Position numbers and translations under genes: made by a program
Assembly: GCA_020444175.1 (NCBI GenBank)
Contig: JAHLLM010000004.1
Location: forward strand, 122,588 to 186,587
Length of the DNA stretch: 64,000 nucleotides
Direction of reading: 5' to 3'
From: Desulfobulbaceae bacterium
GTDB lineage: Bacteria > Desulfobacterota > Desulfobulbia > Desulfobulbales > SURF-16
Shown: positions 20,801-50,238 of the stretch, one piece after another
Position numbering within the stretch: the first letter of the stretch is position 1
Layout: each line of letters starts with the position of its first letter
Notes under the pieces: model-generated
Seen by the model: only the letters and a program-made list of their open reading frames with translations
Told to the model about the DNA's origin: nothing
Database searches by the model: none

Positions 20801-20817
20801 AAAGGCTTGTAAACAGA

Positions 20818-21110: not shown

Positions 21111-24100
21111 ATGTTAATAAGATCGATTCTTACTTTCTTGTTCTTCTCCTTTTTCAATGCCGTCGTCTTTGCCGATGACGCCGGCCTGCATTATCCCCAT
21201 TACGAGATGAATAATATCGGTTGTCTTTCCTGCCATTATGAGGTTACGGAGGATGTGCCCGACTGGCTGACCCACGAGCCTCAGGATCTTGACGACACTC
21301 CATATAATAATCTCTGCAGAAGCTGCCATAACGACGTTATCGCACCCAATGTTAATCCTCATTCAAGCCAGACAACGTCCAATCGCTACCATCAGGAAGA
21401 CGGCGGCTGGGCCATTGAGTGCCGTGAGTGTCACTGGCCCCATCATCAGCTTCAGGTCGTGGCCTATGGTTCAGACAGTTATCTCTACTCCGGAGTGTCG
21501 ACGGATGTCACGGCAACGACCCTGACTGAAGTCGGCGCCGGCTGGAGTGATGATCAGTATAATAACAAAATTCTTGTTCCTAACGTAAACCAGCCCTCCT
21601 ATAACTATCTGATTACCGACACCACCAGCGATACTCTGACGGTGGAGATCTCCGGCTCCCATCCCGAACCGATTGATTTAATCAAAACATCGGTGGGCGA
21701 CACCTTTGCCATTATTTACGGTAATTTGATTCGTTCTACTATCCCGACCCCTTACAGTGGTTATAAAGAGGTCCGCTTTTTTAACAACAACGGCACCAAC
21801 TCCTTTGCAGACGGCGATTCAACCCGAGACGGCGTCTGCGAGGTCTGCCATACCGAGGCTAACCATTTCCGCAACACCGGTGAAATCAATGCCGGTGCCG
21901 GCGGTTATGACCATACTGCTGTAGCCGGCACAAACTGTATCACCTGTCATCCCCATACTTCAGGCTTTGCCCACGGAAACGGCACAGGCAGCGGCGACTG
22001 CTGGGAGTGTCATGGCCATGACGAAGGTTATGATGATGCAACTTACGGAGTTGTCACAGGGGGCAAAGGCAGCTTCAAGTCCCATTCCACCCACACGGAA
22101 AACGACAGTGACGACATAAAGGGCCCCAATGTTTCCTGTGATGAGTGCCATGACACCGGCAATTTCCCCTATTTTAAATCCGGCACCGACAGCAACAGCG
22201 ACGGACTCATTTCCCTTTCCGAAACAGATGTCTGCAATACCTGCCACAGCCCGGGTGGTACCTATGACGGTGTAAGCGATTCCGTTTTGGGGGCAAAAAA
22301 CAACTGGGACAACTCTATTTATGAAGCTGACAGCGAGACCCTGCAGACAGGTAAGGAAAAATGGTGCGCCACCTGTCATGACGAGGAGGCATCAGTGATC
22401 GGTGGCATAACTGCGCCTAACGTCATCGGTGACGAGGACGGCAGCTATACTTACGGGTCAGGATGGGGGTTTTACAAGACCGGACACGGATTGGCGTCCG
22501 GCGAGGCCTATCCCTACAAAGGCGGCTTGATGGAACCTTCATTGGTCAATGACGCCACCAGACCCGTTACCTGCGATTCCTGTCATGATTTGTCCACTGC
22601 CCATATCGACGGCAATGCCAGGACCTACGACGACGGTGACAGCAGCAGCACCGATCCAAGCGTCTATCGCCAGGCATACCGTCTCGATCTAGTGCCTGTG
22701 AGCCAGGGAACCGGAGTCAGCGGTCGTGAACCGTTGCTGGTACCGTGGCCCACCAATACCGCTAACGCCTTTAATAACTCCCGTCTTTGCTTTGATTGCC
22801 ATGACTCCGGACCTTTCCTGAACTCCAGCGATATGGACACCAACCTGGTGACCGTCGGTGTCAACCGTCATGAATATCATCTGATAATAAATAGCTATCA
22901 ATATCCTGCGGACTGGAGCGGCGGCAATACAAGCCGGATGACCTGTGTGGTCTGCCATAACGTGCACGGTTCCACATGGCTGGCGATGATTCGCGACGGT
23001 TCGCTCACCGGCCGACAACCGGGACTTAAAATCTGGTACAAGAACGACGCAATTACCACCAACATCGGTACCCCCAATCCACCGGTTCCTGAAGACCTGC
23101 CCCTGGCAGCCAGTGACGGTACCGCCTGGATTAATAACACGGTGCACAATCTCTGTGTCGGCTGCCATAGCAACGGCAATCTGGAAGGCGAGGACCGGGC
23201 GCCGTTCCAGGAAAGCAGTCAGGTCCCGACCCTTGACTGGACAGGGCAGACAGGCTACGTGACCGACGGTGCCGATCCTGACAGCGCACCCTCGGGCAGC
23301 ACCTTCATTTTCCGGGTTAAATACACGGATTTCAACAACGATGCACCTGCATCCATCAATTTATTGGTCGATACGGACAATGACGGCAACGTGGACGATA
23401 CCTATCCTATGGCGGAAGCGGATATCGGTGACGTCAATTACATGAACGGTGTCATATACACCAAACCCCTTGTCCTTACCGATGCATCGGGAACGACTAT
23501 AGGCTATAAGTTTGAGGCATCTGATGGAACGGATGCCGCCACAGGCGGGCCGGTAGGCTGGAGTGCGGTGTCCTTGGCCGGCCAGGTCAATCATGCGCCC
23601 GAGCTGGCATGGGTAAGCGATACCTGCCGGTACCAGGGGGTTAGTCCGGTAACTGCCGTGAGCGGAACGGATTTTGAGTTCTACGTCAGCTACACTGACC
23701 AAGACGACCAGTTCGATTCGCTGCAGGTCTGGGTCGATCTGAATGATGACGGTGATTATGACGATACCGATGAAAAGCAGGATATGGTCGTTGACGGTGG
23801 CGACGGTGACTACACGAATGGTGAGAACTTAAGCAAGACGGTTACGCTCAGTTATGCCGGAGACGGCATGCTCAATTACCGTTTTGTCGCCTCCGACGGC
23901 ACCTATGCTGCGGTTGGGAATCCGGCAGGCGTACAGTCGGTAACGGTTATTGATTCAGGTGTGACACCTGTCACCGTCTGTGCTTCCGGATGTGATGAGA
24001 CAACCATCCAGGCTGGCATCGATGCCGCACTGAGTGGTGATAGAATTACCCTGGTTTCCGCGGGTACCTATAATGAGAACCTCAGTCTGACGTCTTCTTC

Positions 24101-27100
24101 CTGGAACAATTCAAAATTTCATGCAGTCTGCGGTCCGGATGAAACCACAATCAGCAGCACCGGCGATATTGTCTTCCTCCAGAACGTCAGCGGCGTGCAC
24201 ATCGACGGTTTTGAAATCACCGGCGGCACCAGGGGTGTCTACTCCAACGGTGCCCCCGCTACCATTAACAACTGTAAGATCCATGACAACAACAATACCG
24301 AAGAAGGCGGCGCCGGCCTGTATTCAATCAATGCTGCCCAGACCGTTACCAATTCGGAAATCTATTCCAACACCAGCTCCGGAAACGGCGGCGGCGTTAG
24401 CTTACCTAGCGTTGCCGGCCATTCGTTTGTCAACACGATTATCCGCGACAACGAATCCACGGCCGGCGGTGGCGGTGCGGTATTCACCCAGAACGGCAGC
24501 ACCACTTTCACCGACGTTACCATTAAGGACAACACCTCTGCCACCGTGGGCGGCGGGGTGTATGCCAACAGTTCCGACACCACATTCAGCCGCTGCACCA
24601 TCACCGGTAATACCGCAACCAGCAGCTTAGGCGGGGCTTTGTACAACTCCAACAGCGGTTGCGATGCGGTCTTTGAAAACTGTATCATCGCCGGCAACAG
24701 CGCAGCCAATGCCGGTGCCGTCAATGTAAACCAGGGAACGCTCTCCATCGTTAATTCAACCCTGGCCGATAACCAGGCGACAGCCGGCGATGGGGGCGCA
24801 ATTAAAACGAATACCGGAACCACAACGATCCGCAACTCAATCCTGTGGGGCAACAGTGCATCCGGCTCCGGACACATTGCCTATAACACCGGATCCATGA
24901 CCATCACTGATACGGTTATTGCCAGCGGCAGCGACGGAGTGCCCTCCAATGCTCCCTATATTGCAGGCACTGTCACGCCGACGGTGAGCGGTTACGTATC
25001 GGAAAACGATCCTCTGTTTGTCGATAGCGCAAATAATAACTACCACATCAAATCGACATCGGATGCCATTGATAACGCCAATGCAACCTATGCGCCTGAT
25101 GATGATATTGACGGAGACACGAGGCCCCAGTCTGCAGCGGACGATATTGGTGCCGACGAATATCTCGCAACCATTAACGCTCCGGAGCTCTCCTGGACGG
25201 GTGAGACAGGCTACACGGCCGACGGCGTCGATCCAAACAGCGGCACCAGCGGCAGCACATTCACCTTTGAGGTTGATTATACCGATGCCGACAATAACAG
25301 TCCGACTATTATTCAGGTCTGGATTGATGAAGATGACGACGGTGCGTACGGCAGCAATGAGAAATATGACATGACCGGCACCGACGGCGGCGACACGGAC
25401 TATACCGACGGGAAACGTTATGCAAAAGCCGTTGTCTTGACGTATGCGGGAGACGGGGGCCTTACGTATCTGTTTTACGCCTCTGACGGAATTTTCGGGG
25501 CAACAGGCGATCCCACGGCAAACAGCGTGTTGACCGTAACCAACAACGTGCCGACCCTGGCCTGGACCGGTGAAACGAATTACACGGCCGACGGCGTCAA
25601 CCCGAACAGCGGCACGGGCGGCGATACCTTTACCTTCCGGGTCGACTACACGGATGCGGATAATAGTGCACCTTCATCCATTCAGGTCTGGGTGGACGAA
25701 GACGACAGCGAAACGTATGAGGCGAATGAAAAACACGACCTGACCGCAGTCGACGGCGGTGATTCCGACTACACCGACGGCAAGCGCTACAGCACGGATC
25801 TGATGCTTCTTTCCAGTGGTGACGGCGTTCTGAATTATCGCTTCTATGCCACTGACGGCTCGGATTCCGCCACCGGCAACCCGACCTCGGACGCCGCGGT
25901 ATCCGTGGCCAACAGCGTGCCGACTCTGGCCTGGACAGGTGAAGCCGACTACACCACCGACGGTGTCGATCCCGACAGCGACGGTGACGGCAGCACCTTT
26001 ACCTTCCGGATTGATTACACCGATGCGGACAATACCGCACCTGCGACCATCCAGGTCTGGGTGGATGAGGACGACAGCGGCGATTACGAAGCGGATGAGA
26101 AATACGACATGACCGTAGTCGATGGTGGTGATTCCGACTATACGGACGGCAAACGCTATACCAAAGACATGGCCCTTGCCTACACCAGTGACGGTGCCTA
26201 TCCGTATCGTTTCTACGCCACTGACGGCGCAATTGCAGCCACGGGCGACCCGACGGCGGACAGCACGGTGACCGTTACTTTTGTGCCGAATGAGGCGCCG
26301 ACCCTTGACTGGACAGGCGAGAGCAACTACACCACAGACGGCGTTGATCCGGAAAGCGATCTGGCCGACAGCACCTTCACCTTCCGGGTGAAATATACAG
26401 ACTCGAACAACGATTCACCAACCTCCATCCAGGTCTGGATCGATGAAGACGACAACAGCTCCTATGAGGAGGATGAAAAATACGACATGACCGAAGTCGA
26501 TGCAGGCGACATCCTCTATACGGACGGCAAGCTGTATACCGTGGATCGCGCCGTGGGCTATGCCGGTGATGGTGTTCTGCACTACCGCTTCCATGCCAAT
26601 GACGGTGAGGCGGATGCTACTGCCAACGACCCGGTGACCACCACCAGCGCCACCCTGACCATTATCAACCCGATTACCGTATGCGCAAGCGGCGCGGATT
26701 TCACCAGTATACAGACAGCCATTGACGATGGCGGCACCTCCAGCGGCGATTACATCCGGGTTTGCAACGGTACCTACAGCGAGAACATCAATTTCAACGG
26801 CAAGAATGTCATTGTTTATTCCATGAACGGCGCAGCAGCAACGACCATTCAAGGATCCGGCGCAAACAGTCCGGTGCTTACCTTCTCAAACGGTGAAACT
26901 GCAAGTGCCGTGCTTGATGGCTTTACCATCGACAACCAGAATTCCGGGGGTGCCGGTGCCTATGGAATCAAAATAACCAGCAGCTCGGCCCCGACTATCA
27001 AGAATTCGGTGATCAAGGGGAACGTGCCTGCCAGCTATGTCAACGGAGCGGGTATCTATATCGACGGCGGCGCTGCCACCATTGAGGACTGTACCATCGG

Positions 27101-30100
27101 CGATGCGACAGATCAAAATCAATGCCGCTACGGATCGGCGATCTATGCCATAAACGGCGGCGATGATCTTACGGTCACCGGTTCAACTCTGCTTTCTAAT
27201 GTCGCAGCCAATGAAGGCGGGGCGATCTATTTGAGCGGCAGGACCTCAACAACGACCTTGACTGATACCACGGTGTCTGGCAACTCTGCCGGACAGCACG
27301 GCGGGGCGATTCGTTGCGTCAATTCAGCTTTGGTGCTCAACAACAGCACCATTGATAGTAACACGGGAATCGCAAGCTACGGTGTGGGAGGCGGAATTTA
27401 TGTCAGCGGCGCCTCGGCGATACTGTCGACTACCAGCGGCACGACGATCAGCAATAACGATGCGAAGGTCGGCGGCGGAATTCAGGCAAGCGGTGGTGCT
27501 CAGCTGACAATCAGCGGGACCATTATCGAAGAAAACACTGCCCGCGGCGGCACGGGCGGTGGCTTGAATATCGCTGATGCGGCAACAGTGGTCGATATCT
27601 TTAAGACCTGGATCAGGGGAAATACCGCCATGACCTATGGTGGCGGTATCTATAACAGTACGGCAACAACGACTCTGACCAACTGTATGGTAACCGGCAA
27701 CCTGGCCGAGGGAGTCTCCTATAATGACGGCGGTGGTATAAACAACGCCGGTACCATGTATGTCTACAGCTCCAGCATCGTTGGGAACCGGACAGGCCGC
27801 AACGGCGGCGGCTGGAGCGGCGGCGGTACCATCACGAACAGTATTGTCTGGGGTAACTCCGCAGGCGGCACGGGCCAACAGATCAACGGGTCGCCCACGG
27901 TCACCTATTCAGATGTTGCCGGTGGTTTCACGGGTACCGGCAATATCGACAGTGATCCGTGTTTCGTTGACCTGCAGATCGCTTCCGCAGGCAATCCGAC
28001 CACGGCAGGCAACTTTCATATCTGCAATGATGTCGATGATCCGGTTGCCGGTTGCACCGGCACCTCGGGTGTCATCGATGTCGGTACCTCGACCGATGCC
28101 CCGGCGGATGATTTTGACGGCGATTCCAGACCGCAGGTGAGTGGTTATGACATGGGTGCGGACGAGTATGAGTCGGCAGAGATCACCGTGTCTTTCACAA
28201 GTGCTTCCCAGGCAACGGCTGACGAGAGCGGTGCGGTAACCATTACGGCCGAGCTTTCTGCGGTGAGCGGCAGTGACGTGACGATACCGTTTACCGTAAA
28301 CGGTGCCAGCACTGCCTCCAGCAGCGGCACTGACTACAGCATCACGGTAAGCCCGGTAACCATCACCGCCGGCAATACCACCGCGGATATAACGGTAACC
28401 ATCGCCACAGACGGGCTTGATGAGGATAATGAAACCGTTATCGTTGACATGGGCACACCCACCAACGCAAGTCAGGGGGGGCCGACCACCCATACCGTGA
28501 CCATTACCGATGATGACGCAACCCCGACCGTTACCTTTACCAGTGCCTCCCAGGCAACCGCAAATGAAAGCGGCACGGCAACGATCACGGCAGAGCTTTC
28601 TGCGGCCAGCGGCAGGGATGTGACGGTGCCCTTTACCGTAAACGGTTCAAGCACTGCCACCGGCGGTGATACGGATTATTCCATCACTGCAAGTCCGCTG
28701 ACAATGAGCGCCGGCAATACCACGGCGGAGATTACGGTAACCATTGCCTCAGACGATTTTGATGAGGATAATGAGACCGTTATTGTCGACATGGGAATAC
28801 CGACTAATGCTAGTCAGGGTGCAACAACGATCCATACGGTGACAATCACCGATGACGATGCCGCACCGAGTGTCACCTTTACCAGCGCTTCCCAGGCTAC
28901 TGCCGATGAAAGCGGTATAGCCACTATTACTGCAGAGCTTTCCGCGGTAAGCGGCAGGGATGTGACGATGCCCTTTATCGTTAACGGCACAAGCACGGCC
29001 GACGGCGGCGGTACGGATTACTCTATCTCATCAAGTCCGCTGACCATTACAGCGGGTAATACTTCAGCCGATATTACGGTTACCATTGCCACTGACAGCG
29101 ATATTGAAGGGGATGAGACGGTCATCGTCAATATGGGCACGCCTTCCAATGCAACTCAGGGTGTAACAACAACCCATACGGTGACCATCACGGATGATGA
29201 TGCAGCATTGCCCACAGTGACCTTTAGCAGCGCGTCCCAGTCAACAGTGGACGAAAGCGGCGTGGCCACGATCACCGTAGAACTCTCTGCAGTAAGCGGC
29301 TCGGATGTGACGGTGCCTTTTACCGTCAACGGAGCAAGTACTGCCACAGGAGGCGGTACGGATTACTCCATTACCGCAAGCCCGGCTACTATAACAGCCG
29401 GCAACACATCGGTTGACATCACTGTAACGGTGACAACGGACAGCGATGATGAAGGTGATGAGACGGTTATCGTTGATATGGGCAGTCCTACCAACGCAAC
29501 TCAGGGGGCGACAACGACCCATACGCTGACCATCACAGACGATGACAGCGCCAGTGGCAGTACATATACCGTCTGCCCGGCCGGACATGCGGATGCTCCG
29601 TGCGATTATGAAACCATAAACGCCGGTATCGACGACGCAGGTGTTATTGACGGCGACACCCTGCTTGTATCCGCCGATACCTACAGTGAAAACATCAACT
29701 TTGACGGTAAGGATATTACCATCAGATCAGCTGGCGGCGCGGCAAGTACGACAATCCAGGGCGACGGCTCCAATGCACCGGTTGTCAGTTTCGGCACCAG
29801 CGAAACGACAGACGCCGTTTTGGACGGTTTTACCATTGATAATCAGACGGCAAGTTCATCCACCCGCGGTGTCTATATTTATGGCGCCTCACCCACTGTG
29901 AAAAACTGCACCATCCAGAATAATGCAGCCAACAATTCCAGTGTGGACGGCGTTAATGTCGGCGGCGGCGGTATTTTCGTCAAAAACGGCGCACCGACAA
30001 TCGATAACTGTGCCATCAGCGGCAATACCAGTGAAAACAGAAACGGGGCCGGTATTTATTGTGCCGGCACAACGGACGGCACCATCATCCAAAACAGCAC

Positions 30101-31007
30101 CGTTTCCTCAAATAATGCCAAACAGTATGGTGGCGGTATTTACGCGGATGTCGGTCTGACTCTGATCAATACGGATATTTCAGCCAATGTCGTTGCTTCC
30201 TACGGCTACGGAGGCGGAATGTATCTGACCGGCACGGATAAGGTAACAACGTATACCGGCGGTTCGTTGAGCGGTCTGACCGCCCAAAACGGTGGCGGTG
30301 TCTATATTTCCGGTGGTGCTGATTTGACCATTGACGGCGGCGCGGTCATCAGCGGCAACACCGCTTCCAACGGCAGCGGCACCGGTACGGGTGGTGGTGT
30401 TTATATTAACGGCACCGGTTCCACCCTCACCTGTTCCAAGGCATTCCTCAAGGGCAATGATGCGGACCAGTATGGCGGCGCCGTTTACAATAACGGCGGC
30501 GGACTCACCATGACCAACTGCAACGTCACCGGCAACACCGCCGACGGGCAGACATACGGACGGGGCGGCGGCATCTACACAACCGGTACAGCCACGGTGG
30601 ATATCTACAGCAGCACCATTGCCGGCAACTACGCCTACTATGCCGGAGGCGGCCTCTATCATAATGGCGGTATCACGACAGCCACAAACAGCATATTCTG
30701 GGACAATACCACGGATGACAGGGATCCGGAAATTTACGGCACGATAACCGCTACCTATAGCGATATTGAGGGTGGCTATTCCGGAACAGGCAATATTAAC
30801 CTTGACCCGAACTTTGTCACTCCGGCTGCGGCTGCGAACGGCATTCCGACAATAGATGGCAACTTCCTGCTGCAAGCCGGATCGAACGTCATCGATGTAG
30901 GCGGCGGTGTGGATGATATTGAGCCTGATCCGCCAACCGATGATATTGAAGGGAACAGTCGGCCCCAGGGCTCAGGATATGATATGGGGGCCGATGAATA
31001 TATGTAG
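21111..31007 (+). CDS. Giant (3298 aa) exported multihaem cytochrome/surface protein, paralogue of 12275-20800
   Basis: Signal peptide; 13 CxxCH motifs; about six Ig-like/'WTGETxYTxDGVDPxS' repeats; beta-helix blocks; four Calx-beta modules; C-terminal SRPQGSGYDMGADEYM. Confidence 0.9.
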   Translation: MLIRSILTFLFFSFFNAVVFADDAGLHYPHYEMNNIGCLSCHYEVTEDVPDWLTHEPQDLDDTPYNNLCRSCHNDVIAPNVNPHSSQTTSNRYHQEDGGWAIECRECHWPHHQLQVVAYGSDSYLYSGVSTDVTATTLTEVGAGWSDDQYNNKILVPNVNQPSYNYLITDTTSDTLTVEISGSHPEPIDLIKTSVGDTFAIIYGNLIRSTIPTPYSGYKEVRFFNNNGTNSFADGDSTRDGVCEVCHTEANHFRNTGEINAGAGGYDHTAVAGTNCITCHPHTSGFAHGNGTGSGDCWECHGHDEGYDDATYGVVTGGKGSFKSHSTHTENDSDDIKGPNVSCDECHDTGNFPYFKSGTDSNSDGLISLSETDVCNTCHSPGGTYDGVSDSVLGAKNNWDNSIYEADSETLQTGKEKWCATCHDEEASVIGGITAPNVIGDEDGSYTYGSGWGFYKTGHGLASGEAYPYKGGLMEPSLVNDATRPVTCDSCHDLSTAHIDGNARTYDDGDSSSTDPSVYRQAYRLDLVPVSQGTGVSGREPLLVPWPTNTANAFNNSRLCFDCHDSGPFLNSSDMDTNLVTVGVNRHEYHLIINSYQYPADWSGGNTSRMTCVVCHNVHGSTWLAMIRDGSLTGRQPGLKIWYKNDAITTNIGTPNPPVPEDLPLAASDGTAWINNTVHNLCVGCHSNGNLEGEDRAPFQESSQVPTLDWTGQTGYVTDGADPDSAPSGSTFIFRVKYTDFNNDAPASINLLVDTDNDGNVDDTYPMAEADIGDVNYMNGVIYTKPLVLTDASGTTIGYKFEASDGTDAATGGPVGWSAVSLAGQVNHAPELAWVSDTCRYQGVSPVTAVSGTDFEFYVSYTDQDDQFDSLQVWVDLNDDGDYDDTDEKQDMVVDGGDGDYTNGENLSKTVTLSYAGDGMLNYRFVASDGTYAAVGNPAGVQSVTVIDSGVTPVTVCASGCDETTIQAGIDAALSGDRITLVSAGTYNENLSLTSSSWNNSKFHAVCGPDETTISSTGDIVFLQNVSGVHIDGFEITGGTRGVYSNGAPATINNCKIHDNNNTEEGGAGLYSINAAQTVTNSEIYSNTSSGNGGGVSLPSVAGHSFVNTIIRDNESTAGGGGAVFTQNGSTTFTDVTIKDNTSATVGGGVYANSSDTTFSRCTITGNTATSSLGGALYNSNSGCDAVFENCIIAGNSAANAGAVNVNQGTLSIVNSTLADNQATAGDGGAIKTNTGTTTIRNSILWGNSASGSGHIAYNTGSMTITDTVIASGSDGVPSNAPYIAGTVTPTVSGYVSENDPLFVDSANNNYHIKSTSDAIDNANATYAPDDDIDGDTRPQSAADDIGADEYLATINAPELSWTGETGYTADGVDPNSGTSGSTFTFEVDYTDADNNSPTIIQVWIDEDDDGAYGSNEKYDMTGTDGGDTDYTDGKRYAKAVVLTYAGDGGLTYLFYASDGIFGATGDPTANSVLTVTNNVPTLAWTGETNYTADGVNPNSGTGGDTFTFRVDYTDADNSAPSSIQVWVDEDDSETYEANEKHDLTAVDGGDSDYTDGKRYSTDLMLLSSGDGVLNYRFYATDGSDSATGNPTSDAAVSVANSVPTLAWTGEADYTTDGVDPDSDGDGSTFTFRIDYTDADNTAPATIQVWVDEDDSGDYEADEKYDMTVVDGGDSDYTDGKRYTKDMALAYTSDGAYPYRFYATDGAIAATGDPTADSTVTVTFVPNEAPTLDWTGESNYTTDGVDPESDLADSTFTFRVKYTDSNNDSPTSIQVWIDEDDNSSYEEDEKYDMTEVDAGDILYTDGKLYTVDRAVGYAGDGVLHYRFHANDGEADATANDPVTTTSATLTIINPITVCASGADFTSIQTAIDDGGTSSGDYIRVCNGTYSENINFNGKNVIVYSMNGAAATTIQGSGANSPVLTFSNGETASAVLDGFTIDNQNSGGAGAYGIKITSSSAPTIKNSVIKGNVPASYVNGAGIYIDGGAATIEDCTIGDATDQNQCRYGSAIYAINGGDDLTVTGSTLLSNVAANEGGAIYLSGRTSTTTLTDTTVSGNSAGQHGGAIRCVNSALVLNNSTIDSNTGIASYGVGGGIYVSGASAILSTTSGTTISNNDAKVGGGIQASGGAQLTISGTIIEENTARGGTGGGLNIADAATVVDIFKTWIRGNTAMTYGGGIYNSTATTTLTNCMVTGNLAEGVSYNDGGGINNAGTMYVYSSSIVGNRTGRNGGGWSGGGTITNSIVWGNSAGGTGQQINGSPTVTYSDVAGGFTGTGNIDSDPCFVDLQIASAGNPTTAGNFHICNDVDDPVAGCTGTSGVIDVGTSTDAPADDFDGDSRPQVSGYDMGADEYESAEITVSFTSASQATADESGAVTITAELSAVSGSDVTIPFTVNGASTASSSGTDYSITVSPVTITAGNTTADITVTIATDGLDEDNETVIVDMGTPTNASQGGPTTHTVTITDDDATPTVTFTSASQATANESGTATITAELSAASGRDVTVPFTVNGSSTATGGDTDYSITASPLTMSAGNTTAEITVTIASDDFDEDNETVIVDMGIPTNASQGATTIHTVTITDDDAAPSVTFTSASQATADESGIATITAELSAVSGRDVTMPFIVNGTSTADGGGTDYSISSSPLTITAGNTSADITVTIATDSDIEGDETVIVNMGTPSNATQGVTTTHTVTITDDDAALPTVTFSSASQSTVDESGVATITVELSAVSGSDVTVPFTVNGASTATGGGTDYSITASPATITAGNTSVDITVTVTTDSDDEGDETVIVDMGSPTNATQGATTTHTLTITDDDSASGSTYTVCPAGHADAPCDYETINAGIDDAGVIDGDTLLVSADTYSENINFDGKDITIRSAGGAASTTIQGDGSNAPVVSFGTSETTDAVLDGFTIDNQTASSSTRGVYIYGASPTVKNCTIQNNAANNSSVDGVNVGGGGIFVKNGAPTIDNCAISGNTSENRNGAGIYCAGTTDGTIIQNSTVSSNNAKQYGGGIYADVGLTLINTDISANVVASYGYGGGMYLTGTDKVTTYTGGSLSGLTAQNGGGVYISGGADLTIDGGAVISGNTASNGSGTGTGGGVYINGTGSTLTCSKAFLKGNDADQYGGAVYNNGGGLTMTNCNVTGNTADGQTYGRGGGIYTTGTATVDIYSSTIAGNYAYYAGGGLYHNGGITTATNSIFWDNTTDDRDPEIYGTITATYSDIEGGYSGTGNINLDPNFVTPAAAANGIPTIDGNFLLQAGSNVIDVGGGVDDIEPDPPTDDIEGNSRPQGSGYDMGADEYM
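21543..22021 (+). repeat. 479-bp block identical to 12707-13185 (copy 2)
   Basis: See copy 1. Confidence 0.93.
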
Positions 31008-40044: not shown

Positions 40045-40269
40045 ATGAGTTCTAAAACAATTTCTATATTCAACCTTAGTCCTCCGGAAAAGCTGCAATT
40101 GGTGGAAGATTTATGGGATGATTTGGCTGCCTCGCCGTCCGAGATACCTATACATGAGTGGCAAAAAAAAGAATTGTCACGTCGTAAAACCAACTTGATG
40201 AACGCTCCGGCTTCAGGACTTTCCTGGGATGAGGTTAAACTCAGGGTACGAAGTCATTATGGCCGTTGA
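40045..40269 (+). CDS. Addiction-module antitoxin component (short helical 'addiction module protein' family)
   Basis: LSPPEKLQLVEDLWDDLA...PIHEWQKKELSRR; overlaps toxin gene. Confidence 0.85.
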   Translation: MSSKTISIFNLSPPEKLQLVEDLWDDLAASPSEIPIHEWQKKELSRRKTNLMNAPASGLSWDEVKLRVRSHYGR

Positions 40270-40558
40270 ATTGATTGTTGCTCCCGAAGCACAGCAAGAT
40301 ATTGAAGAAGCATATGGCTGGTATGAACAACGCAGACCTGGTTTAGGAGAAGATTTTCTCAGTTGCGTGGATGCCGGCATCCAAACAATTTGTCGACTCC
40401 CACTCTCTTATCCTCAAATTTACGAAGAATACCGTCGGGCTTTGGTTCGAAGATTTCCATTTGCCGTTTTTTATGAATATACAAGTGGGGTCGTGTATAT
40501 ATACAGTATTTTCCACACATCTCAAAATCCTGACAAGTGGCGCATTCGCTTGATATAG
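40259..40558 (+). CDS. RelE/ParE-family toxin
   Basis: MAVELIVAPEAQQDIEEAYGWYEQRRPGLGEDFLSCVDAGIQTI. Confidence 0.88.
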   Translation: MAVELIVAPEAQQDIEEAYGWYEQRRPGLGEDFLSCVDAGIQTICRLPLSYPQIYEEYRRALVRRFPFAVFYEYTSGVVYIYSIFHTSQNPDKWRIRLI

Positions 40559-40754: not shown

Positions 40755-41089
40755 ATGGCTTTATTAGAAAAAATTGAACAAGATGCTCTTTCTCTTTCCT
40801 GACAGGAGAGAGCTTTTTTGGCAGATCGGTTATTGAGTTCTCTTGACGATAATTGACGGTTTCGTAAAAACCCCCTCAACCGCCGCCGACAAGTATGTAA
40901 CTTGTTGATATTGCGTTGGCGGATGGTCAGCTTGAGAGCTTTTGGCGAGACCATCATAATTCCTTAAGTGATATCGATTCGGCTTGGATTGCAGAGGCCG
41001 AACAGCGTTACCAGGAGTATAAAGCTGGGAAGCGCCCAGGCATAGAAGCTCAAGAAGTTTTTGCAGAAGCCGACCAAAGGCTGAAATGA
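40755..41089 (+). pseudogene. Disrupted addiction-module antitoxin: in-frame TGA plus ~100-bp repeat insertion
   Basis: MALLEKIEQDALSLS*QERAFLADRLLSSLDDN then repeat B, then LSDIDSAWIAEAEQRYQEYKAGKRPGIEAQEVFAEADQRLK*. Confidence 0.85.
40854..40952 (+). repeat. Dispersed ~99-bp repeat, copy B, inserted in the antitoxin
   Basis: tgacggtttcgtaaaaaccccctcaaccgccgcc...gtaacttgttgatattgcg..ggcggatggtcagct matches inverse of copy A. Confidence 0.88.
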
Positions 41090-41424
41090 CAAGTCTGATT
41101 TTTGACCCCGGTGCACGGCATGAATTTCTGGAAGCTGTTTCTTATTATGAAAAATGTAGCGTCGGCCTTGGAAAACGTTTTCGTGATGATGTAGAGTCTG
41201 CGTCAAAAAGTATCGTTGAAACTCCTTTCAGGTACCGTATTCTGTCTGCTCCTTTTCGCGGATGTTTAATTTCTAAATTCCCATACGCCATTATCTATAC
41301 CATTGAGCCTGATCATATCAGGATTATCACATTTTTCCTTGAAGCTATTGGCTGGGATGATTTCTTGCCATCAAGACATTTGGCGGCAGTGAAGTCCTTT
41401 CAGAAAAAGTCAAAATTCCGGTAA
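41086..41424 (+). CDS. RelE/ParE-family toxin with disrupted cognate antitoxin
   Basis: MTSLIFDPGARHEFLEAVSYYEKCSVGLGKRFRDDVESASKSI; ATGA overlap with the antitoxin stop. Confidence 0.87.
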   Translation: MTSLIFDPGARHEFLEAVSYYEKCSVGLGKRFRDDVESASKSIVETPFRYRILSAPFRGCLISKFPYAIIYTIEPDHIRIITFFLEAIGWDDFLPSRHLAAVKSFQKKSKFR

Positions 41425-41846: not shown

Positions 41847-42524
41847 ATGAAGAAAAGAGTTTTAAGTTTTATGGGCTTTGTCCTGATCTTGGGCTTGGCT
41901 GCCGATGCATCGGCTTTTCAGTGGCCTGATACAGGACAGACGAAACGGTATGATAATTCTCAGGAGATTGGTTGCCCGGAGCCGGGAGAGCCCTTCTATG
42001 GGCAGGACGCTGATTATGCCGGGCCTGATCCGGGAGGGCAGAAATTTGACGCGGATGGCAACGAGCTGCTCTGGGATGCTGCAGAGTGGGCCATTCTCCT
42101 GCATAGTGGCACCGGGCTCATGTGGGAGATGAAAACCAATGACGGCACCATCCATGACCGGGATAACAAATACACCTGGTGTGACACCAATCCTGAAACC
42201 AATGGCGGGTATGCAGGGACCTGCGGCAACGGCACGGATACGGAAGATTTTATTCAGGCCTTGAACGACGCTCAATTCGGCGGTTACAATGATTGGAGGC
42301 TGCCAACCATCAAGGAGCTTTCCACCCTTGTAGACGCAGATATGGTCGGCAACACCATTGATCTTGACAAATTCCCTGACAATCAGGCGTATTACTACTG
42401 GTCGTCCTCCACCTATGCCGCTAGTACCGGCAACGCATGGAACGTCTATTTCGGCTACGGTTACGTGAACTACTACAGTAAGCTCAATAGTTTTTACGTT
42501 CGCGCCGTGCGCGGCGGACAGTGA
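41847..42524 (+). CDS. DGR target (variable) protein: secreted DUF1566/C-type-lectin-fold protein
   Basis: Signal peptide MKKRVLSFMGFVLILGLAADASA; GYNDWRLPTIKELSTLVD; C-terminal VR ending FYVRAVRGGQ. Confidence 0.95.
   Translation: MKKRVLSFMGFVLILGLAADASAFQWPDTGQTKRYDNSQEIGCPEPGEPFYGQDADYAGPDPGGQKFDADGNELLWDAAEWAILLHSGTGLMWEMKTNDGTIHDRDNKYTWCDTNPETNGGYAGTCGNGTDTEDFIQALNDAQFGGYNDWRLPTIKELSTLVDADMVGNTIDLDKFPDNQAYYYWSSSTYAASTGNAWNVYFGYGYVNYYSKLNSFYVRAVRGGQ
42384..42523 (+). repeat. DGR variable repeat (VR)
   Basis: Ungapped alignment to TR 43071-43210 (offset 687): 16 mismatches, all at TR adenines. Confidence 0.97.
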
Positions 42525-42564
42525 TTGATAATTTGGTTATTTGGACATTTGATAATTAAAGATA

Positions 42565-42987
42565 ATGGCACGCTACGAGCATTTACCCATTTATAAAAAG
42601 GCCATGGAACTTGCGGTTTATCTGCAGAATGTGGTCAGAAATTTTTCCCGCTATGACAAGTATTCCATAGGGGCTGATCTCCGCGACCTTTCCCGTCGGT
42701 CTTTAATGCTGATAATCAGGGCCAATAATGCGGTGAACAAGACGGATGTGCTCAGGGAGCTTGTAGAGTGTTGTGAAATGTTGAAAACAATGTTGTTTTT
42801 TGCCAAGGAGGTCAAGGCCTTTGCAAATTTCAAGAGTTTTCAGCATGCCGCAAGTCTTGCGGTTGTGGTGAGCAAACAGAGCGAGGGATGGCTGAAAAGC
42901 AGTAAAAATGGCCGGAATTCTGAGTCGGTTGCCCCACAGCCGGTTCAGGAGCGAGCCCATACACACTGTGCGCCTTCCCCGCCATAA
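42565..42987 (+). CDS. avd: DGR accessory variability determinant, four-helix-bundle (Avd-like)
   Basis: MARYEHLPIYKKAMELAVYLQNVVRNFSRYDKYSIGADLRDLSRRSLMLIIRANN; lies between VR and TR. Confidence 0.9.
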   Translation: MARYEHLPIYKKAMELAVYLQNVVRNFSRYDKYSIGADLRDLSRRSLMLIIRANNAVNKTDVLRELVECCEMLKTMLFFAKEVKAFANFKSFQHAASLAVVVSKQSEGWLKSSKNGRNSESVAPQPVQERAHTHCAPSPP

Positions 42988-43058
42988 TTTATGGCATAAT
43001 CATACAGGCTGCCGAGTTATCGGCTGCCGGTGGGCCGCTAAGGCCTTTAAGAGGGAAG

Positions 43059-44714
43059 GTGAGGTGGGGCCAGGCGTATTACTACTGGTCGTCCTCCACC
43101 AATGCCGATAATACAAGCAACGCATGGAACGTCAATTTCAACAACGGTAACGTGAACAACAACAATAAGAACAATAGTTTTTACGTTCGCGCCGTGCGCG
43201 GCGGAAAGTGTGAGCTGCTTTCCTGGGCGTCGGTCTATCAGGCCTATCTTGACTGCCGCCGCAGGAAGCGAAGTACGATAAATGCGCTTAAATTCGAGGC
43301 GAATCTCTTGGAGAATCTCTTTGATCTGGCGCTTGAGCTTCAAAACGGTACGTACCGGCCATCCCGCTCTGTCTGCTTTGTCACCACCCGGCCGAAAAAC
43401 AGGGAAATTTTTGCGGCCGATTTTCGTGACCGTATTGTCCACCACCTGGTCGTGCGTCCCCTGGAAAAAATCTGGGAACCGAGATTTATTCATGACTCGT
43501 ACGCCTCCAGACCTGGAAAAGGAATTCATGCCGCAACGCAGCGCCTGAGAAAATTTATGGTCAAGGTAACCGGAAATCGCAGGAAGACTGCCTGGTATAT
43601 GCAGCTTGATATCCGTTCTTTCTTTATGAGTATCGATAAAAATATACTCTTCAACCTTCTGGGAAAAGGGATGGTGAAATCTGACGACAAAACGGCAAAC
43701 ACCCTGCTTTATCTGCTTGAACGGATAATATTTCACGACTGCACCCAAGATTATTATTTTAAGGGAAACCGGGCGTTGCTTGGCACTGTTCCGGCCCACA
43801 AGTCACTTTTTGCGTTGCCGGACAATGTCGGTCTGCCGATTGGCAATCTGACTTCACAGTTTTTTGCCAATGTCTACCTCAACTCATTGGATCAGTTTGT
43901 CAAACATGTCCTCAATTGCCGCTATTATCTCCGCTATGTTGATGATTTTGTGCTGCTTAATGAAGATAAAGAGCAACTTGCAACATGGCAGCAAAGAATA
44001 TGCAATTTTCTTGAATCGCGCCTCAAGCTCCAGCTTAAAGACAAAGGCAGGTTGCGCAGGGTCTCTGATGGGGCGGACTTTCTCGGCTACATTGTACGTC
44101 CTGACTATGTCCTTGTGCGCAACAGGGTGGTGGGAAACCTGAAAGCAAGGCTCCGGGAATTTGAAAACAAGCTTGTCTCTTTCAGCTTTGCCGGAAAGCA
44201 AAAACGTGTGTTCTTTAATTTCTGTCCGGATATTCTTGACAAATTGAGGCAGGTTCTCGCCTCCTATCTTGGCCATTTTAAACACGCTGACAGTCACCGG
44301 CTTATCAAAAGTATTTTTTTGAAATTTAAGTGGCTGGAGGAATTCTTTGAGATGAAAGACGGCAGATTGAGAGAAAAATATACGCCCCCCAGGACTTTTA
44401 GAAAACTTGCCTGCCAGTATCATTTTTTCAAAAAAATTGCTGCTGACGCCCTGCTTCTCTTCAGGATTGGTGAATTTTATGAGATGTACGATGGGGATGC
44501 TTTACGGGCTGCAGAACGGCTCAACCTGCGGACAAGTAAAATAAACAGGCGTGGGATGGGACTTGCGGCAGGATTTCCATACCGGCGATTACGTCATTAC
44601 ATTGAAAAGGCTTTGACATCGTTTAAAGTGATTGTCGTAGTTGAGGAAAAAGAACAGCAGGGCCGTTTCCTGCGTGACAGATATGTAAACACTATATACA
44701 GAGTTTGCTGTTAA
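43059..44714 (+). CDS. DGR reverse transcriptase with C-terminal MutS-domain-I-like extension; true start uncertain
   Basis: RT motifs MQLDIRSFFMSID, GLPIGNLTSQFFANVYLN, YLRYVDDFVLL, GADFLGYIVRPDY; C-terminus ADALLLFRIGEFYEMYDGDALRAAERLNL...GLAAGFPYRRLRHYIEKAL..VIVVVEE. ORF begins at GTG 43059 and reads through the TR. Confidence 0.93.
   Translation: MRWGQAYYYWSSSTNADNTSNAWNVNFNNGNVNNNNKNNSFYVRAVRGGKCELLSWASVYQAYLDCRRRKRSTINALKFEANLLENLFDLALELQNGTYRPSRSVCFVTTRPKNREIFAADFRDRIVHHLVVRPLEKIWEPRFIHDSYASRPGKGIHAATQRLRKFMVKVTGNRRKTAWYMQLDIRSFFMSIDKNILFNLLGKGMVKSDDKTANTLLYLLERIIFHDCTQDYYFKGNRALLGTVPAHKSLFALPDNVGLPIGNLTSQFFANVYLNSLDQFVKHVLNCRYYLRYVDDFVLLNEDKEQLATWQQRICNFLESRLKLQLKDKGRLRRVSDGADFLGYIVRPDYVLVRNRVVGNLKARLREFENKLVSFSFAGKQKRVFFNFCPDILDKLRQVLASYLGHFKHADSHRLIKSIFLKFKWLEEFFEMKDGRLREKYTPPRTFRKLACQYHFFKKIAADALLLFRIGEFYEMYDGDALRAAERLNLRTSKINRRGMGLAAGFPYRRLRHYIEKALTSFKVIVVVEEKEQQGRFLRDRYVNTIYRVCC
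43071..43210 (+). repeat. DGR template repeat (TR)
   Basis: 140 nt, dense in AAC/AAT codons (14 AAY in the VR reading frame); only A positions differ from VR. Confidence 0.97.
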
Positions 44715-44731: not shown

Positions 44732-47700
44732 ATGATGAAAAAGGATAGTCGCAGAATTTTAGCAGCATTGATTTTTTGTTTGCTGGCTGCTGTGTCGACA
44801 GCGCAGGCGGAAATCATCTATAACGGCAATAACACGGTCACAGATACGGAAACCGGCTTGATCTGGCATACTGAATCATTTGGGCCGTACACATGGCAGC
44901 AGGCTCTGGAGGCATGTGAAACCGAAAACTGGGAAGGGTTTGCTGATTGGCGTCTGCCGAACCGCAATGAACTGCAATCCCTGGTAGATTATTCCACCCA
45001 CACCCCCTCTATTGACTCTTATCTGTCTTCGGCTACCTACTCAAATTATTACTGGACTTCCACCACCAACCGGGCCAATCCGGCTGTGGCCTGGCTGGTC
45101 AGTTTTCAGTACGGCAACGTCACCTATGACACCAAAACCAAAGGTTTCTATATTCGTCCGGTGCGGGGAGGCGAGGCCGTGCCAAACAGTAAATTTGATT
45201 GCCCAACTGACTTTGTTGATAATGGTGACGGCACTGTTACCGATATAAATACCGGTCTTACCTGGCTGCAATCGAGCCTTGGGCCGTTCACCTGGCAGCA
45301 GGCTCTGGCCGAGGCTGAACGTTTAGTGCAGGGAGAAAAAACCGACTGGCGTCTGCCAAACCGTAATGAGCTGCAGTCCATTGTATTTTATTCTCGACAT
45401 ACCCCTGCCATTGATAACACGGTTTTTGACAATACTCAATCAAGTGGCTACTGGACCTCCACCACCAACCGGGCCAATCCGGCTGCGGCCTGGCTGGTCA
45501 ATTTTCAGTACGGCAATGTCACCTATGACACCAAAACCAAAGGTTTTTATATCCGTCCGGTGCATGGAGGCGATGTAACACCTTCCGGCCAATGTAACTC
45601 CAGCCTGGCGGATAACGGCAATGGCACGGTGACTGATACTGCAACCGGCTTGATGTGGCATCAGGATGGTTTTTCCGCGCGCACCTGGGAAGAAGCACTG
45701 GCTACATGCGAAAACCTTTACTATGCAGGCCATAACGACTGGCGCCTACCGGATCGAAACGAACTGCAATCGCTGGTTTTTTATGCCAGACATACTCCGG
45801 CGATTGATCCGGTAGGTTTTCCGATTACCCAGTCCGCAGGGTACTGGACCTCCACAACCAATACGGCCAATCCGGCTGCGGCCTGGCTGGTCAATTTTCA
45901 GTACGGCAATGTCACCTATGACACGAAGACCGATAATTATTATGTACGGCCTGTACGTGGCCAACAGAATGACGATATGGTCGGCACTATCAGTTTTTCT
46001 TTGCCTGAAGGTGCGGCAACTTTGCAAACCGGTCAGCAATTTTCAATCACATTCAATAGTATGGCAAGAATGGACCATTATGAATGGGATCTGAACAACG
46101 ACGGTGTTACAGATGTTACAAGCCGGGATAACTTTATTTCGTTCTGGTATAATGAGCCCGGCACCTATATGGTCAGGGCTGTGGCTGTTGCCCTTGACGG
46201 TAGCCGCATTGTAGCTTGGGGGCTCATTGAGGTTGAAGGTGTGGGGGAACTTTCTGAAGATTTTTCATTTGTGCCATGGTATCCGAAAACTGACAACATT
46301 GCTTCGGAAGTAATGCGAGGCGGCAGGGCAATTCGTCATTACCGTCTTGTCGATGGCAGCGGCCAGCCGATTCTTTACAAAAAATTATTTTATCGTTTCA
46401 GTGGGTATTCTCAAATTAATGAAGCCCTGTCAGATGATATGGGCTTTGTGAAAATAGTCACTCCTGCTTTGAGTGCATCCGGCCAGACATTTTATCTCAA
46501 TGTAACAGATTCGACTGGAAATGCGTCCTCAATGAGCGTGACTGATCCTCCTCACTTTTCTGTTGATGTCGGCGAGAGGACATTCAGTGAAGAATATGAG
46601 CTGCTGCTCAGTGTCGGAGGCAGTATCGGCAAGGGGCTGGGGGTGAAGCTCGGCCCTCTTGAATTGAAAGCTCTCAAAGCAACTGTGGGCGCAAGTAATA
46701 GTGTTGCCTCAAGATTTGTCTATGAAAACAGGGAAGAGGATGCAGACTTTTTCATCCAGTCCACATTGGGTGAATCGTTGGAGACGGAACTGGCAGCTGG
46801 ATTATATGGCCGGGTTTTCAAGACAAAAACCTTGCCAAAAGTTGAGGCTGGAATTGAAGTCGAGGCTCAGGTGGCCAATGAAATCATGACTGAGTATGAC
46901 TTTCCCTCCCTTGTCATCAATAACGAGATAAATGATAATTCCCAGGCTTTGAGGGCCGGTATTGCACTTTTGGAGAGTGGCATAAATTCCGGCAAACAGG
47001 TTGCTGTGGGGATGGATCGACTCCTTCTTGGCCTGATTGATAAATATGTTGAACAATATACCGGAATCACTGCTGATGTTACCGGAAATACCGTCACTTT
47101 GTCTGGAGAAGCTTCCATCGGCGCTTCACTCACCTTAAAAAATCCCATCGGCGCTTCTGCCGGAAGTGAGTGGGGCGTGTCGGGGGAGGCTTTTGAAGGC
47201 TCCTATGCATATTCCCTGGGAATTCTTCAGCAGGAAGACAGCTCCGCCATGTCCGTTACCCAGAGTGTTGTTGCCGGCATGGATTTCGGTAAGTTCAGCC
47301 TCATCTATGGACAGAAATTTGCGGGAGATAAAAGGCGAAACAACACCCCTAAATTTGAAATTCCCTGGTTTACCAATTCACTGGTAAGCATTGAAGGGGA
47401 GCAGGGTGTGACCGCAACCCATAGATCTGACGGTAGTACAGAGCTTGAATATCGCCATCTGCTTGATCGCGATGATTCAGGATTTTTCATTGTCGGCAGC
47501 ACGGTAGTTGAAAAGAATATGTATTTACGCACCGATAAAGAAGCGGTCATTAGTGAAATTGCTGGAGTATCTGAAATGGCGGGCCAGATGTGTTTTCTTG
47601 ACCCGGAAGAAAATTTTGATTTCTACTTTTCACCCACTCATTACAATGATCTGCGGGATGGTTTTCTTGATGTAAGTGCCGGCAGCGTCAATTGGGAGGA

Positions 47701-49405
47701 AGTAATAACTGAGAGGGATATGATTTCCATTCCTCTGGATTTTGAAGTCAGCCTTGGCGTGTCACTTGGTCTTGACCTGTCAGCAACGGCCTTGAAGGAG
47801 GTTAACTTTGTGGGCAGCAGGGGTATGATTGATGATGGGGCCCAGTTTGCCACGGAATTCTATGAAAAAGACAGCTATATATTTAATAATATCAAACAAT
47901 ATCAACCTTTCATGAATGCAGCCCGGGATGCTGTGCGAGAGATAGCTTCTCAAGTGATTGAGACAATTGAAGGTTGGGTCGTAGAAGGTACTGAACTTGT
48001 TGTTGAAATTGGCGTTAATGTGACTGCCGGAGTAAAAAGTGTAGCAGATACATTTGTCGCCGGCAGCAGGATTGTCATTTCAAAACTGGAGCCACTTCAG
48101 GAATCTTACACCGTTAAATCATTGACCTCCAAAGGTATTGAGGGAACAGCCTCTACAATTGGCGATGTCTATATTGTCAATGTTCTTGATGAGGCGGGTG
48201 TGGCACTGGAAACCTTTGCTACACCTCTTGAGCTGACTATTGGTTACACTGAAGAGATGTTGATTGCTGCCGGCTATATACTGGCAGATGCTTCAGCCTT
48301 ACGAATTTACAGATGGGACGGGGTTTCCGGTTATTACATCTTCGTGGGAGGTACAGTTGATGAAATTGCAAAGACCGTGACTGCCGCTATAAGTCAACCC
48401 GGTCAGTACTTGCTCGCGATTGACGGCCAAGCGCCGATGGTCCAGGATTTTTACGTGTCGGACGGGACGCCGACGGCATCATTTACAATCCGTGTCAGTG
48501 ACGCATTCAGCGGCCTTGATCCTGAGTCGATCATTTTTTCCATTGACGACATTGAAATGGTTAATGCAGAAAATCAGGCGGATTATTTCAATGCAATTTC
48601 AGGAGAACTATACTTTCAGCCGTTTTCAGCTCTCGCCGGAGGTGATCATCTGGCGGAATTGACTGTCTGTGACAATCTGGCTAATTGTGATACTTTCAGC
48701 TGGATGTTTGCGGTGAATGACTCTCCTCCGTTGGTGATTCATGAGCAGATCAGTGAAAGCGTCTCCTTTGAGCCGTTACAGGTTACGGCAGAGGCAAGTG
48801 ATGATGAAGGACAACCGGCCGTCTTTCTGTATTTCAGGGCATTAAAAGACAACATGGATTTCCTGGTTGTTGAGATGATCTATAATGATATTTCCGGTCA
48901 GTTTGAGGCTGAGATTCCAACGAGTTATCTTACTTCTTTCGGCGTACGCTACTTCCTGAGCGCAATCGATACTTCAGGGAATGTAACTGAAACGGAGCTT
49001 TTTGATATAGCAATTGATGATACAACCGGACCGGATATTCCTGGAGGGGTAAAGGTTTTTCCTCTGACTGGCTTTTTTGAGTTTGAATGGGATGCTTCTC
49101 CTGATATAGACACAATGGGGTATCGTTTTTATCTTGGGGATAATCCTGATAATATGTTTTTTTATGAGGAAATTGGTCTTTCCGGCTGGACGCAACTTGC
49201 TGACAGCTTCAATAGATCATTTTTTGCGGTTACAGGCTTTGATGCAGCAGGAAATGAAGGTATTGCTGTCGGGCCGCGACCAGTTCAACTCGAATATGAT
49301 ACAGATATGGACCTGGATGTGGATGGAGCTGATCTTGCCGCTGCTGTTGCAACAGGTGGCATTGATATAGAACGTTTTGCTGTAGAGTTTGGTGGGGCAT
49401 GGTGA
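44732..49405 (+). CDS. Giant secreted protein: three N-terminal DUF1566 modules, PKD-like region, large beta-rich body, dockerin/EF-hand-like C-terminus
   Basis: Signal peptide; DWRLPNRNELQSLV repeated three times, each followed by YWTSTTN..NPAxAWLVxFQYGNVTYDTKT; C-terminal DTDMDLDVDGADLAAAVA. Confidence 0.85.
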   Translation: MMKKDSRRILAALIFCLLAAVSTAQAEIIYNGNNTVTDTETGLIWHTESFGPYTWQQALEACETENWEGFADWRLPNRNELQSLVDYSTHTPSIDSYLSSATYSNYYWTSTTNRANPAVAWLVSFQYGNVTYDTKTKGFYIRPVRGGEAVPNSKFDCPTDFVDNGDGTVTDINTGLTWLQSSLGPFTWQQALAEAERLVQGEKTDWRLPNRNELQSIVFYSRHTPAIDNTVFDNTQSSGYWTSTTNRANPAAAWLVNFQYGNVTYDTKTKGFYIRPVHGGDVTPSGQCNSSLADNGNGTVTDTATGLMWHQDGFSARTWEEALATCENLYYAGHNDWRLPDRNELQSLVFYARHTPAIDPVGFPITQSAGYWTSTTNTANPAAAWLVNFQYGNVTYDTKTDNYYVRPVRGQQNDDMVGTISFSLPEGAATLQTGQQFSITFNSMARMDHYEWDLNNDGVTDVTSRDNFISFWYNEPGTYMVRAVAVALDGSRIVAWGLIEVEGVGELSEDFSFVPWYPKTDNIASEVMRGGRAIRHYRLVDGSGQPILYKKLFYRFSGYSQINEALSDDMGFVKIVTPALSASGQTFYLNVTDSTGNASSMSVTDPPHFSVDVGERTFSEEYELLLSVGGSIGKGLGVKLGPLELKALKATVGASNSVASRFVYENREEDADFFIQSTLGESLETELAAGLYGRVFKTKTLPKVEAGIEVEAQVANEIMTEYDFPSLVINNEINDNSQALRAGIALLESGINSGKQVAVGMDRLLLGLIDKYVEQYTGITADVTGNTVTLSGEASIGASLTLKNPIGASAGSEWGVSGEAFEGSYAYSLGILQQEDSSAMSVTQSVVAGMDFGKFSLIYGQKFAGDKRRNNTPKFEIPWFTNSLVSIEGEQGVTATHRSDGSTELEYRHLLDRDDSGFFIVGSTVVEKNMYLRTDKEAVISEIAGVSEMAGQMCFLDPEENFDFYFSPTHYNDLRDGFLDVSAGSVNWEEVITERDMISIPLDFEVSLGVSLGLDLSATALKEVNFVGSRGMIDDGAQFATEFYEKDSYIFNNIKQYQPFMNAARDAVREIASQVIETIEGWVVEGTELVVEIGVNVTAGVKSVADTFVAGSRIVISKLEPLQESYTVKSLTSKGIEGTASTIGDVYIVNVLDEAGVALETFATPLELTIGYTEEMLIAAGYILADASALRIYRWDGVSGYYIFVGGTVDEIAKTVTAAISQPGQYLLAIDGQAPMVQDFYVSDGTPTASFTIRVSDAFSGLDPESIIFSIDDIEMVNAENQADYFNAISGELYFQPFSALAGGDHLAELTVCDNLANCDTFSWMFAVNDSPPLVIHEQISESVSFEPLQVTAEASDDEGQPAVFLYFRALKDNMDFLVVEMIYNDISGQFEAEIPTSYLTSFGVRYFLSAIDTSGNVTETELFDIAIDDTTGPDIPGGVKVFPLTGFFEFEWDASPDIDTMGYRFYLGDNPDNMFFYEEIGLSGWTQLADSFNRSFFAVTGFDAAGNEGIAVGPRPVQLEYDTDMDLDVDGADLAAAVATGGIDIERFAVEFGGAW

Positions 49406-50238
49406 TAAGGATACAACTATTAGCTTTGTTGCTGTTGTTGAGCAAACCTTTTGCAGGTCATGCCGCCACGATCTTTACAGGCATCGGCAATGACGGGTTT
49501 TTCAGCGACGTTATTGGGATTTTTTCCACGATGCAGACAAGTCCGTCACTGAAAAAAATATCTGACCAATATCTGCATGAGGATTTATCAGGTTCCAGTA
49601 TTGCTTCTTCAATTTCCTCTTTACAGTCTGTTCTTCAGCCCAATGATACCTTGATATGGTATTATTCAGGGCATGGCGGCTGGGAATATGACGGCAGCGA
49701 TCATGACGAAACAGCAACAGGCTCATTTGCTGAGGATAATTATGATGAAACAATAGGGCTGCTTTACGGCAGTGACCCAATCTCTGACGATGAATTGGGC
49801 CAGGCTTTTCTCTCTTTATCATCGACAGGCAGCCGCATCGTTACTATATTTGACGCCTGTTATGCCGGTGGCTTCATTGGTGGAGCTAATGACCTGAACA
49901 TGGTGCCTGGCTTGACTTTTCTCGGGTCAAGCGGTGAGCTGGAAGATTCATACAGCTATGATGATCAGCCATACAGCATCTTTACCCAGGGTTTGATTGA
50001 CGGTTTGACTGGTTTTTCGGCTGACTTTGACGGCGACGGCCTGCTTATGGCCAGTGAGTGGTTTGAGTTTGCTTCTGATTATACCCTGGCCGGCGTCGGC
50101 AATCAGCACCCGGTTTTCTGGGGTGACGATGTATTAATTGCTGATGTTGCAGCGGTGCCGTTGCCGGGAGCTTTCTGGCTGCTTGGAGGCGGACTTGCTG
50201 GATTATTTTCTTTAAAGAGAAAATCAACTTATTTTTAA
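49399..50238 (+). CDS. Secreted caspase-like (C14) peptidase with PEP-CTERM-type C-terminal sorting signal
   Basis: IWYYSGHGGWEYDG and TIFDACYAGGF (His/Cys dyad); C-terminal VPLPGAFWLLGGGLAGLFSLKRKS. Confidence 0.87.
   Translation: MVIRIQLLALLLLLSKPFAGHAATIFTGIGNDGFFSDVIGIFSTMQTSPSLKKISDQYLHEDLSGSSIASSISSLQSVLQPNDTLIWYYSGHGGWEYDGSDHDETATGSFAEDNYDETIGLLYGSDPISDDELGQAFLSLSSTGSRIVTIFDACYAGGFIGGANDLNMVPGLTFLGSSGELEDSYSYDDQPYSIFTQGLIDGLTGFSADFDGDGLLMASEWFEFASDYTLAGVGNQHPVFWGDDVLIADVAAVPLPGAFWLLGGGLAGLFSLKRKSTYF

Follow-up and report, generated by a model that had tools for sequence, protein, structure and literature searches.

The locus described here lies in a 64,000-nt stretch of a Desulfobulbaceae genome (hereafter the window; contig JAHLLM010000004.1, positions 122,588 to 186,587) and belongs to an already known kind of gene-diversifying element, the diversity-generating retroelements (DGRs). 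Within this element a long-range covarying helix, P0, joins a structured RNA domain 5′ of TR to the bases directly 3′ of TR, and a phased octamer repeat follows VR. We think it probable that this is a DGR of the Avd + RT-MSL group in which the P0-clamped RNA would set the start and the end of the cDNA, while the octamer and IMH would together mark VR. The coordinates of all features are collected in Table 1.

Table 1. Features of the DGR locus, in positions of the window
Feature	Position	Strand	Description
Target (variable) protein	41847–42524	+	Signal peptide and Lcl_C (PF07603, DUF1566-type); VR at 3′ end
VR	42384–42523	+	Repeat finder, alignment; 3′ end is ...GGACAGTGA (Q-stop)
Phased octamer direct repeat (NNATTTGR)n	42531–42560	+	3′ of VR; exact triple at 42531–42552, ATTTGGTTATTTGGACATTTGA
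avd (bAvd PF22296)	42565–42987	+	Final codons double as the 5′ strands of helices P0 and P1
Structured RNA (model R1 match)	42961–43065	+	Helix P1 encloses hairpins P2, P3 and P4
P0 5′ strand (CACACT)	42962–42967	+	Pairs with 43207–43212
P1 5′ strand (GCCTTCCC)	42972–42979	+	Pairs with 43053–43060
P2 hairpin	42981–42995	+	Alignment pairing, fold
P3 hairpin	43007–43028	+	One mismatch in this sequence
P4 hairpin	43032–43046	+	Predicted in single folds
P1 3′ strand (GGGAAGGT)	43053–43060	+	Ends 10 nt before TR; Shine-Dalgarno-like, is the P1 partner strand
RT ORF	43059–44714	+	From GTG 43059 through TR; RT homology from 43212; RVT_1 43401–44093; LPIGNLTSQ; YVDD
TR	43071–43210	+	Repeat finder, alignment
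TR base A43206	43206	+	Fixed IMH/IMH* difference from VR, as judged from relatives; directly 5′ of P0 3′ strand
P0 3′ strand (AGTGTG)	43207–43212	+	Directly past the part of TR taken to be reverse transcribed, at RT start
MutS_I domain ('MSL' accessory)	44415–44660	+	RT C terminus

By all sequence criteria tested, the locus is a complete DGR, as an earlier sequence-only reading of this DNA had claimed: adenine-specific VR/TR divergence, a bAvd gene, a DGR-type RT and an Lcl_C target with a signal peptide are all present, in the order target with VR, avd, TR, RT that had been given. The recomputed alignment of VR and TR reproduced the coordinates proposed there and extends over 140 nt without gaps; the same pair was also returned by the repeat finder. 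There are 16 differences (seven A>T, five A>G and four A>C) and the template base is A in all 16, with no difference at a non-adenine base. With adenine at 45 of the 140 TR positions, the chance of all 16 differences falling on A is ∼1.5e-9. Ten of the 14 AAY codons of TR are altered in VR and no stop is created. Both statements of the earlier reading hold, although the second carries little weight, since AAY codons mutated only at A cannot give a stop and the absence of stops is thus mostly built in. A whole-genome search with TR matched only TR itself and this one VR. To these features we add the MutS_I domain of the RT, the RNA 5′ of TR, the P0 clamp, the lack of a TR–RT spacer and the octamer past VR.

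Comparison was made with about 20 related DGR loci, from genomes of the same order and phylum and from public genomes including Desulfobacterota and proteobacteria. In these clade loci the differences likewise fall at TR adenines, and several loci have two VRs mutated from a single TR. No comparable RT was found in the other genome of the genus (one genome searched), and viral contigs held no close relative of the RT of this locus. One genome, G235, has two different clade members (L053 and L061), each with its own RNA, TR and VR. Another, G588, holds decayed DGRs (L073, L074), consisting of avd, RNA and a truncated TR without RT, together with an orphan copy of the RNA.

The Lcl_C domain of the target (PF07603) was matched with E = 3e-31, and the N terminus is signal-peptide-like, in agreement with the signal peptide that had been proposed. 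The AlphaFold model of the target (pLDDT 37) is too poor for judging a C-type-lectin-like fold; by sequence, the family is Lcl_C/DUF1566. The part of this exported protein that is diversified would be the C-terminal Lcl_C face. The gene that had been called avd-like matched both bAvd PF22296 (E = 4.5e-11) and PHROG 3206, 'Avd protein of DGR' (E = 2.7e-21). Just upstream of the target there are two ParE-like toxin genes (40229–40558 and 41086–41424), the second scoring under the family cut-off. The gene that comes immediately after the RT, at 44735–49405, encodes a large exported protein with three Lcl_C repeats. We rejected it as a second target, as there is no TR-like VR within it. Several relatives (L005, L006 and L040) have a second VR-bearing target at the equivalent place, and the protein may be a former or static target. 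A secreted caspase-like protein (Peptidase_C14) with a PEP-CTERM motif (49399–50238) adjoins the DGR region.

The RT is that of a DGR, with its catalytic motifs intact (RVT_1 with YVDD, and LPIGNLTSQ as the DGR-type SQ motif). It matched the PHROG RT with E = 3.5e-110, and its best PDB match by sequence was 8ub7, named 'Reverse transcriptase', which we take to be the RT of BPP-1. Residues 453–534 of the RT ORF matched MutS_I (PF01624, E = 5.4e-14), which makes this an MSL-type DGR.

Between avd and TR, the clade loci are conserved in both sequence and fold. In 13 sequences, 94.6% of the cells in helices P1–P3 are paired, compared with 72.9% in shuffled and 31–53% in slid alignments, and double substitutions are seen in 20 of the 24 pairs; this covariation test covered P1, P2 and P3. 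RNAalifold yielded the same fold without being given it, and the copy in the window has a folding z of −3.67. The alignment and the structure come from the same sequences, so that part of the fit arises by construction; independent loci and a test of own against cross pairings served as guards. The covariance model of this RNA, R1, matched all the assembled clade loci except L058, with E-values from 1e-22 to 1e-11, and gave no match in BPP-1 or other DGRs. When 396 genomes of the phylum were searched, R1 matched in nine. The matches outside the training set are DGRs, with the order avd–RNA–TR–RT start in G378, VR–avd–RNA–TR in G600 and avd–RNA–truncated TR in G588.

Searching the window with the Rfam 15 families gave chance matches only. 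Neither RT-15 (RF03018) nor Phage_DGR (RF03022) matched the window, and RT-15 had no match in the clade loci either. The literature searched, which did not extend to the 2018 survey of DGR accessory proteins or the paper defining RT-15, held no description of the RNA, of P0 or of the octamer. As judged against Rfam 15 and this literature, the RNA domain 5′ of TR is previously uncatalogued.

Both ends of TR have fixed neighbours. TR homology begins within about 10 nt of the end of the RNA, and in every clade locus with a mapped TR the TR ends 1–13 nt before RT homology; the TR–RT distance in other DGRs of the same order is about 200 nt. It is across this TR that P0 forms, pairing bases just upstream of P1 with the bases directly 3′ of TR. 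The helix was found at the equivalent place in 19 loci, with 5–10 bp; in L058 it was not found. Pairings within a locus scored 17.6, compared with 12.3 between loci, and the observed total was reached by none of 20 000 permutations. In ten distinct sequences, 66 of the 70 P0 cells are paired, compared with 45.4 in shuffled (0 of 50 000 reaching the observed value) and 20–37 in slid alignments, with double changes in all seven columns.

An RNA that sits 5′ to RT might also be a cis-regulator of avd and RT expression, such as an attenuator or a translational control element, in an otherwise ordinary DGR, and would then have no role in making cDNA. The purine strand of P1 is Shine-Dalgarno-like, and an in-frame start codon adjoins it in six of the seven loci in which TR is in frame with RT. 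We consider this distinctly unlikely, given that P0 spans the entire TR to pair with its immediate 3′ flank, with every column covarying, and that P1 and P0 coincide with the two borders of TR in each locus. The decayed locus in G588, moreover, retains avd, RNA and TR without RT.

The same two helices bear on the start of the RT ORF, which is ambiguous. An ORF of 551 aa runs from GTG 43059, in the VR reading frame, through TR and into RT. The in-frame starts available in the window are this GTG, two further GTGs within TR and, past TR, only CTG 43215; there is no ATG, GTG or TTG between the TR end and RT homology. TR is likewise open in the VR frame into RT, with no ATG, GTG or TTG after TR, in 7 of 18 clade loci, this one included, and in L034 and L047 a strong Shine-Dalgarno-like sequence precedes an in-frame start. 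TR might then be translated, with RT beginning at GTG 43059 and TR acting as both template and N-terminal coding segment of the RT. We regard this as possible but doubtful. Base pairing accounts for the Shine-Dalgarno-like purines before TR, which form the 3′ strand of P1, and for this reason their strength was dropped as proof of translation. Pairing in P0 similarly accounts for the terminal TGA of TR having become TGT or TGG, or having been displaced, in many loci. An open VR frame is needed by TR in any case, a stop lies just before TR in L035, and most of the in-frame loci offer a CTG at the RT border. The first RT codons showed no significant synonymous constraint, and on this ground we also rejected a spacer-like RNA inside the RT gene. 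Pairing in P0 and P1 is thus the simpler reading of the apparent translation of TR.

The sequence-only reading had noted that the last VR/TR mismatch, at A43206, might mark IMH/IMH* divergence. IMH at VR and IMH* at TR share a G+C-rich 3′ end, and in 23 of the 24 clade VRs there is a TR/VR difference within two bases of the P0 strand. At the site equivalent to 43206, C predominates in VR, and TR carries A, G or T. Because the relatives differ at this site even where the TR base is G or T, the mismatch at A43206 is, on this comparison of sequences, a fixed IMH/IMH* difference and not a product of mutagenesis, as had been suspected. This leaves 15 differences as mutagenic.

The exact triple octamer that follows VR occurs once in the 5.4-Mb genome. 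Within 70 nt of the 24 VRs, the prevailing repeat distances are 8 (23 counts) and 16 (10 counts), and across 20 genomes a degenerate triple octamer was seen four times, each time beside a VR. The octamer is missing after TR. It is also absent in three loci where the target continues past VR (L036, L038 and L057). The repeat is T-rich and often lies past the target stop codon, as might be expected if it were a transcription terminator or some other mRNA 3′ feature of the target gene instead of a retrohoming element. This is unlikely, as the octamer also follows VRs that lie inside longer ORFs (L056 at 7748 and, weakly, L054 at 3829), has a strict 8-nt phase with no G+C hairpin and is confined to VRs across the 20 genomes. 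We read the octamer as a putative mark of the recipient site.

In BPP-1 (avd–TR–Sp–brt, RF03022 Phage_DGR), RT and Avd are recruited by the spacer past TR, and this spacer also contains the adenine from which the cDNA is primed at IMH* (PMC12875486). BPP-1 and the present locus have in common a target with VR at its 3′ end, Avd, TR, a DGR-type RT, adenine-specific mutation and an RNA adjoining TR. They differ in how these are arranged. The BPP-1 RNA occupies a 144-nt spacer 3′ of TR, between TR and brt, whereas here the RNA lies 5′ of TR and the short gap between TR and RT homology leaves no structured spacer of the BPP-1 type. VR is followed in BPP-1 by a G+C inverted repeat and here by phased octamers. 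Unlike BPP-1, this locus has P0 joining the RNA to the TR 3′ flank, an RT with MutS_I and an RNA model that finds no match in the other system. A counterpart to the adenosine that primes in BPP-1 was not identified. The template-RNA scaffold of this locus looks like a circular permutation.

From this anatomy the following scheme can be proposed. The avd–RNA–TR–RT transcript would fold so that the P1-enclosed domain (P2–P4) is clamped by P0 to the bases directly 3′ of TR. The clamp would put the RNA domain at the TR 3′ end, the place occupied in BPP-1 by the downstream spacer (Sp). There the RNA domain would be bound by RT-MSL and Avd, and the cDNA would be initiated at the IMH* bases next to P0. 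Errors would arise opposite A, and the cDNA would end at P1. It would then replace VR, recognised by IMH together with the phased octamer, which is present past VR and not past TR and may serve in this recognition.

We take the element to be probably active in this strain. The presence of a single VR in the genome would also fit an inactive relic, an element that has ceased to function and whose VR diverged long ago. That is very improbable, however, as the RT, Avd and target ORFs are intact, the catalytic motifs are kept, and helices P0 to P3 all pair in this sequence with only one mismatch, in P3.

Five RT-15 phage DGRs (RF03018) resemble this locus in having an RNA between avd and TR and a TR near RT. 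Their RTs are about 40–46% identical to this RT over the aligned part, with the match stopping before the MutS_I region. The RT tree, whose deepest fork is weakly supported, puts them on the side of this clade. A P0-like helix is seen in 53 closely related RT-15 loci, with 7–9 of 9 pairs formed, 3 of the 9 being fixed by the anchoring of the site; 8-nt-phased repeats past VR are also present, as judged by eye. The RNAs themselves have diverged in sequence and fold, and neither the Rfam RT-15 model nor R1 matches the RNA of the other group. On these sequence comparisons, homology of the RT-15 RNA and the RNA of this clade is plausible. We give an even chance to the broader proposal that MSL-type DGRs and RT-15 phages share a circularly permuted template RNA, with an RNP-recruiting domain 5′ of TR that P0 closes onto the TR 3′ end. 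In this proposal P0 and P1 set the borders of the mutagenic cDNA, and the octamer replaces the BPP-1 hairpin as the mark by which the target and not the template becomes the recipient.

Association of the RT with the MutS domain I family PF01624, the MSL (MutS-like) accessory, is noted in a passage of PMC10053308 that cites its ref. 12. DGRs of this type are like the present locus in having an RT with MutS domain I; their RNA and VR-flank elements are without description in the literature searched, to which the primary survey did not belong. A further likeness is to the structural group 3 DGRs of PMC3521204, in which TR overlaps the 5′ end of the annotated RT ORF, as TR overlaps the RT frame here. 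That survey took spatial order as irrelevant, and TR and RT as separately transcribed, whereas in this clade the order appears to be fixed throughout by P0/P1 pairing.

How the start and end of the cDNA are chosen, and why information flows one way from TR to VR, is known mainly from one phage. The present clade offers what may be an independent design, with two covarying helices as borders and a simple repeat as the target mark. If the proposed scheme is true, the BPP-1 spacer would be one arrangement of a more general scaffold, and targeted mutagenesis systems could be found and engineered by sequence rules. It would also account for the lack of a clear start codon in many DGR RT genes and for their overlap with TR.

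Two observations were made apart from these. In G049, the L062 locus has a 765-aa frame (4271–6568, RT-strand coordinates) that runs from RT into a VR-bearing protein with no stop between; a fusion of RT and target was rejected as read-through, the target having its own ATG and signal peptide. Elsewhere in the window, 12275–31007 encodes two very long and closely similar multiheme cytochrome-like exported proteins, of 2841 and 3298 aa, which contain repeats.
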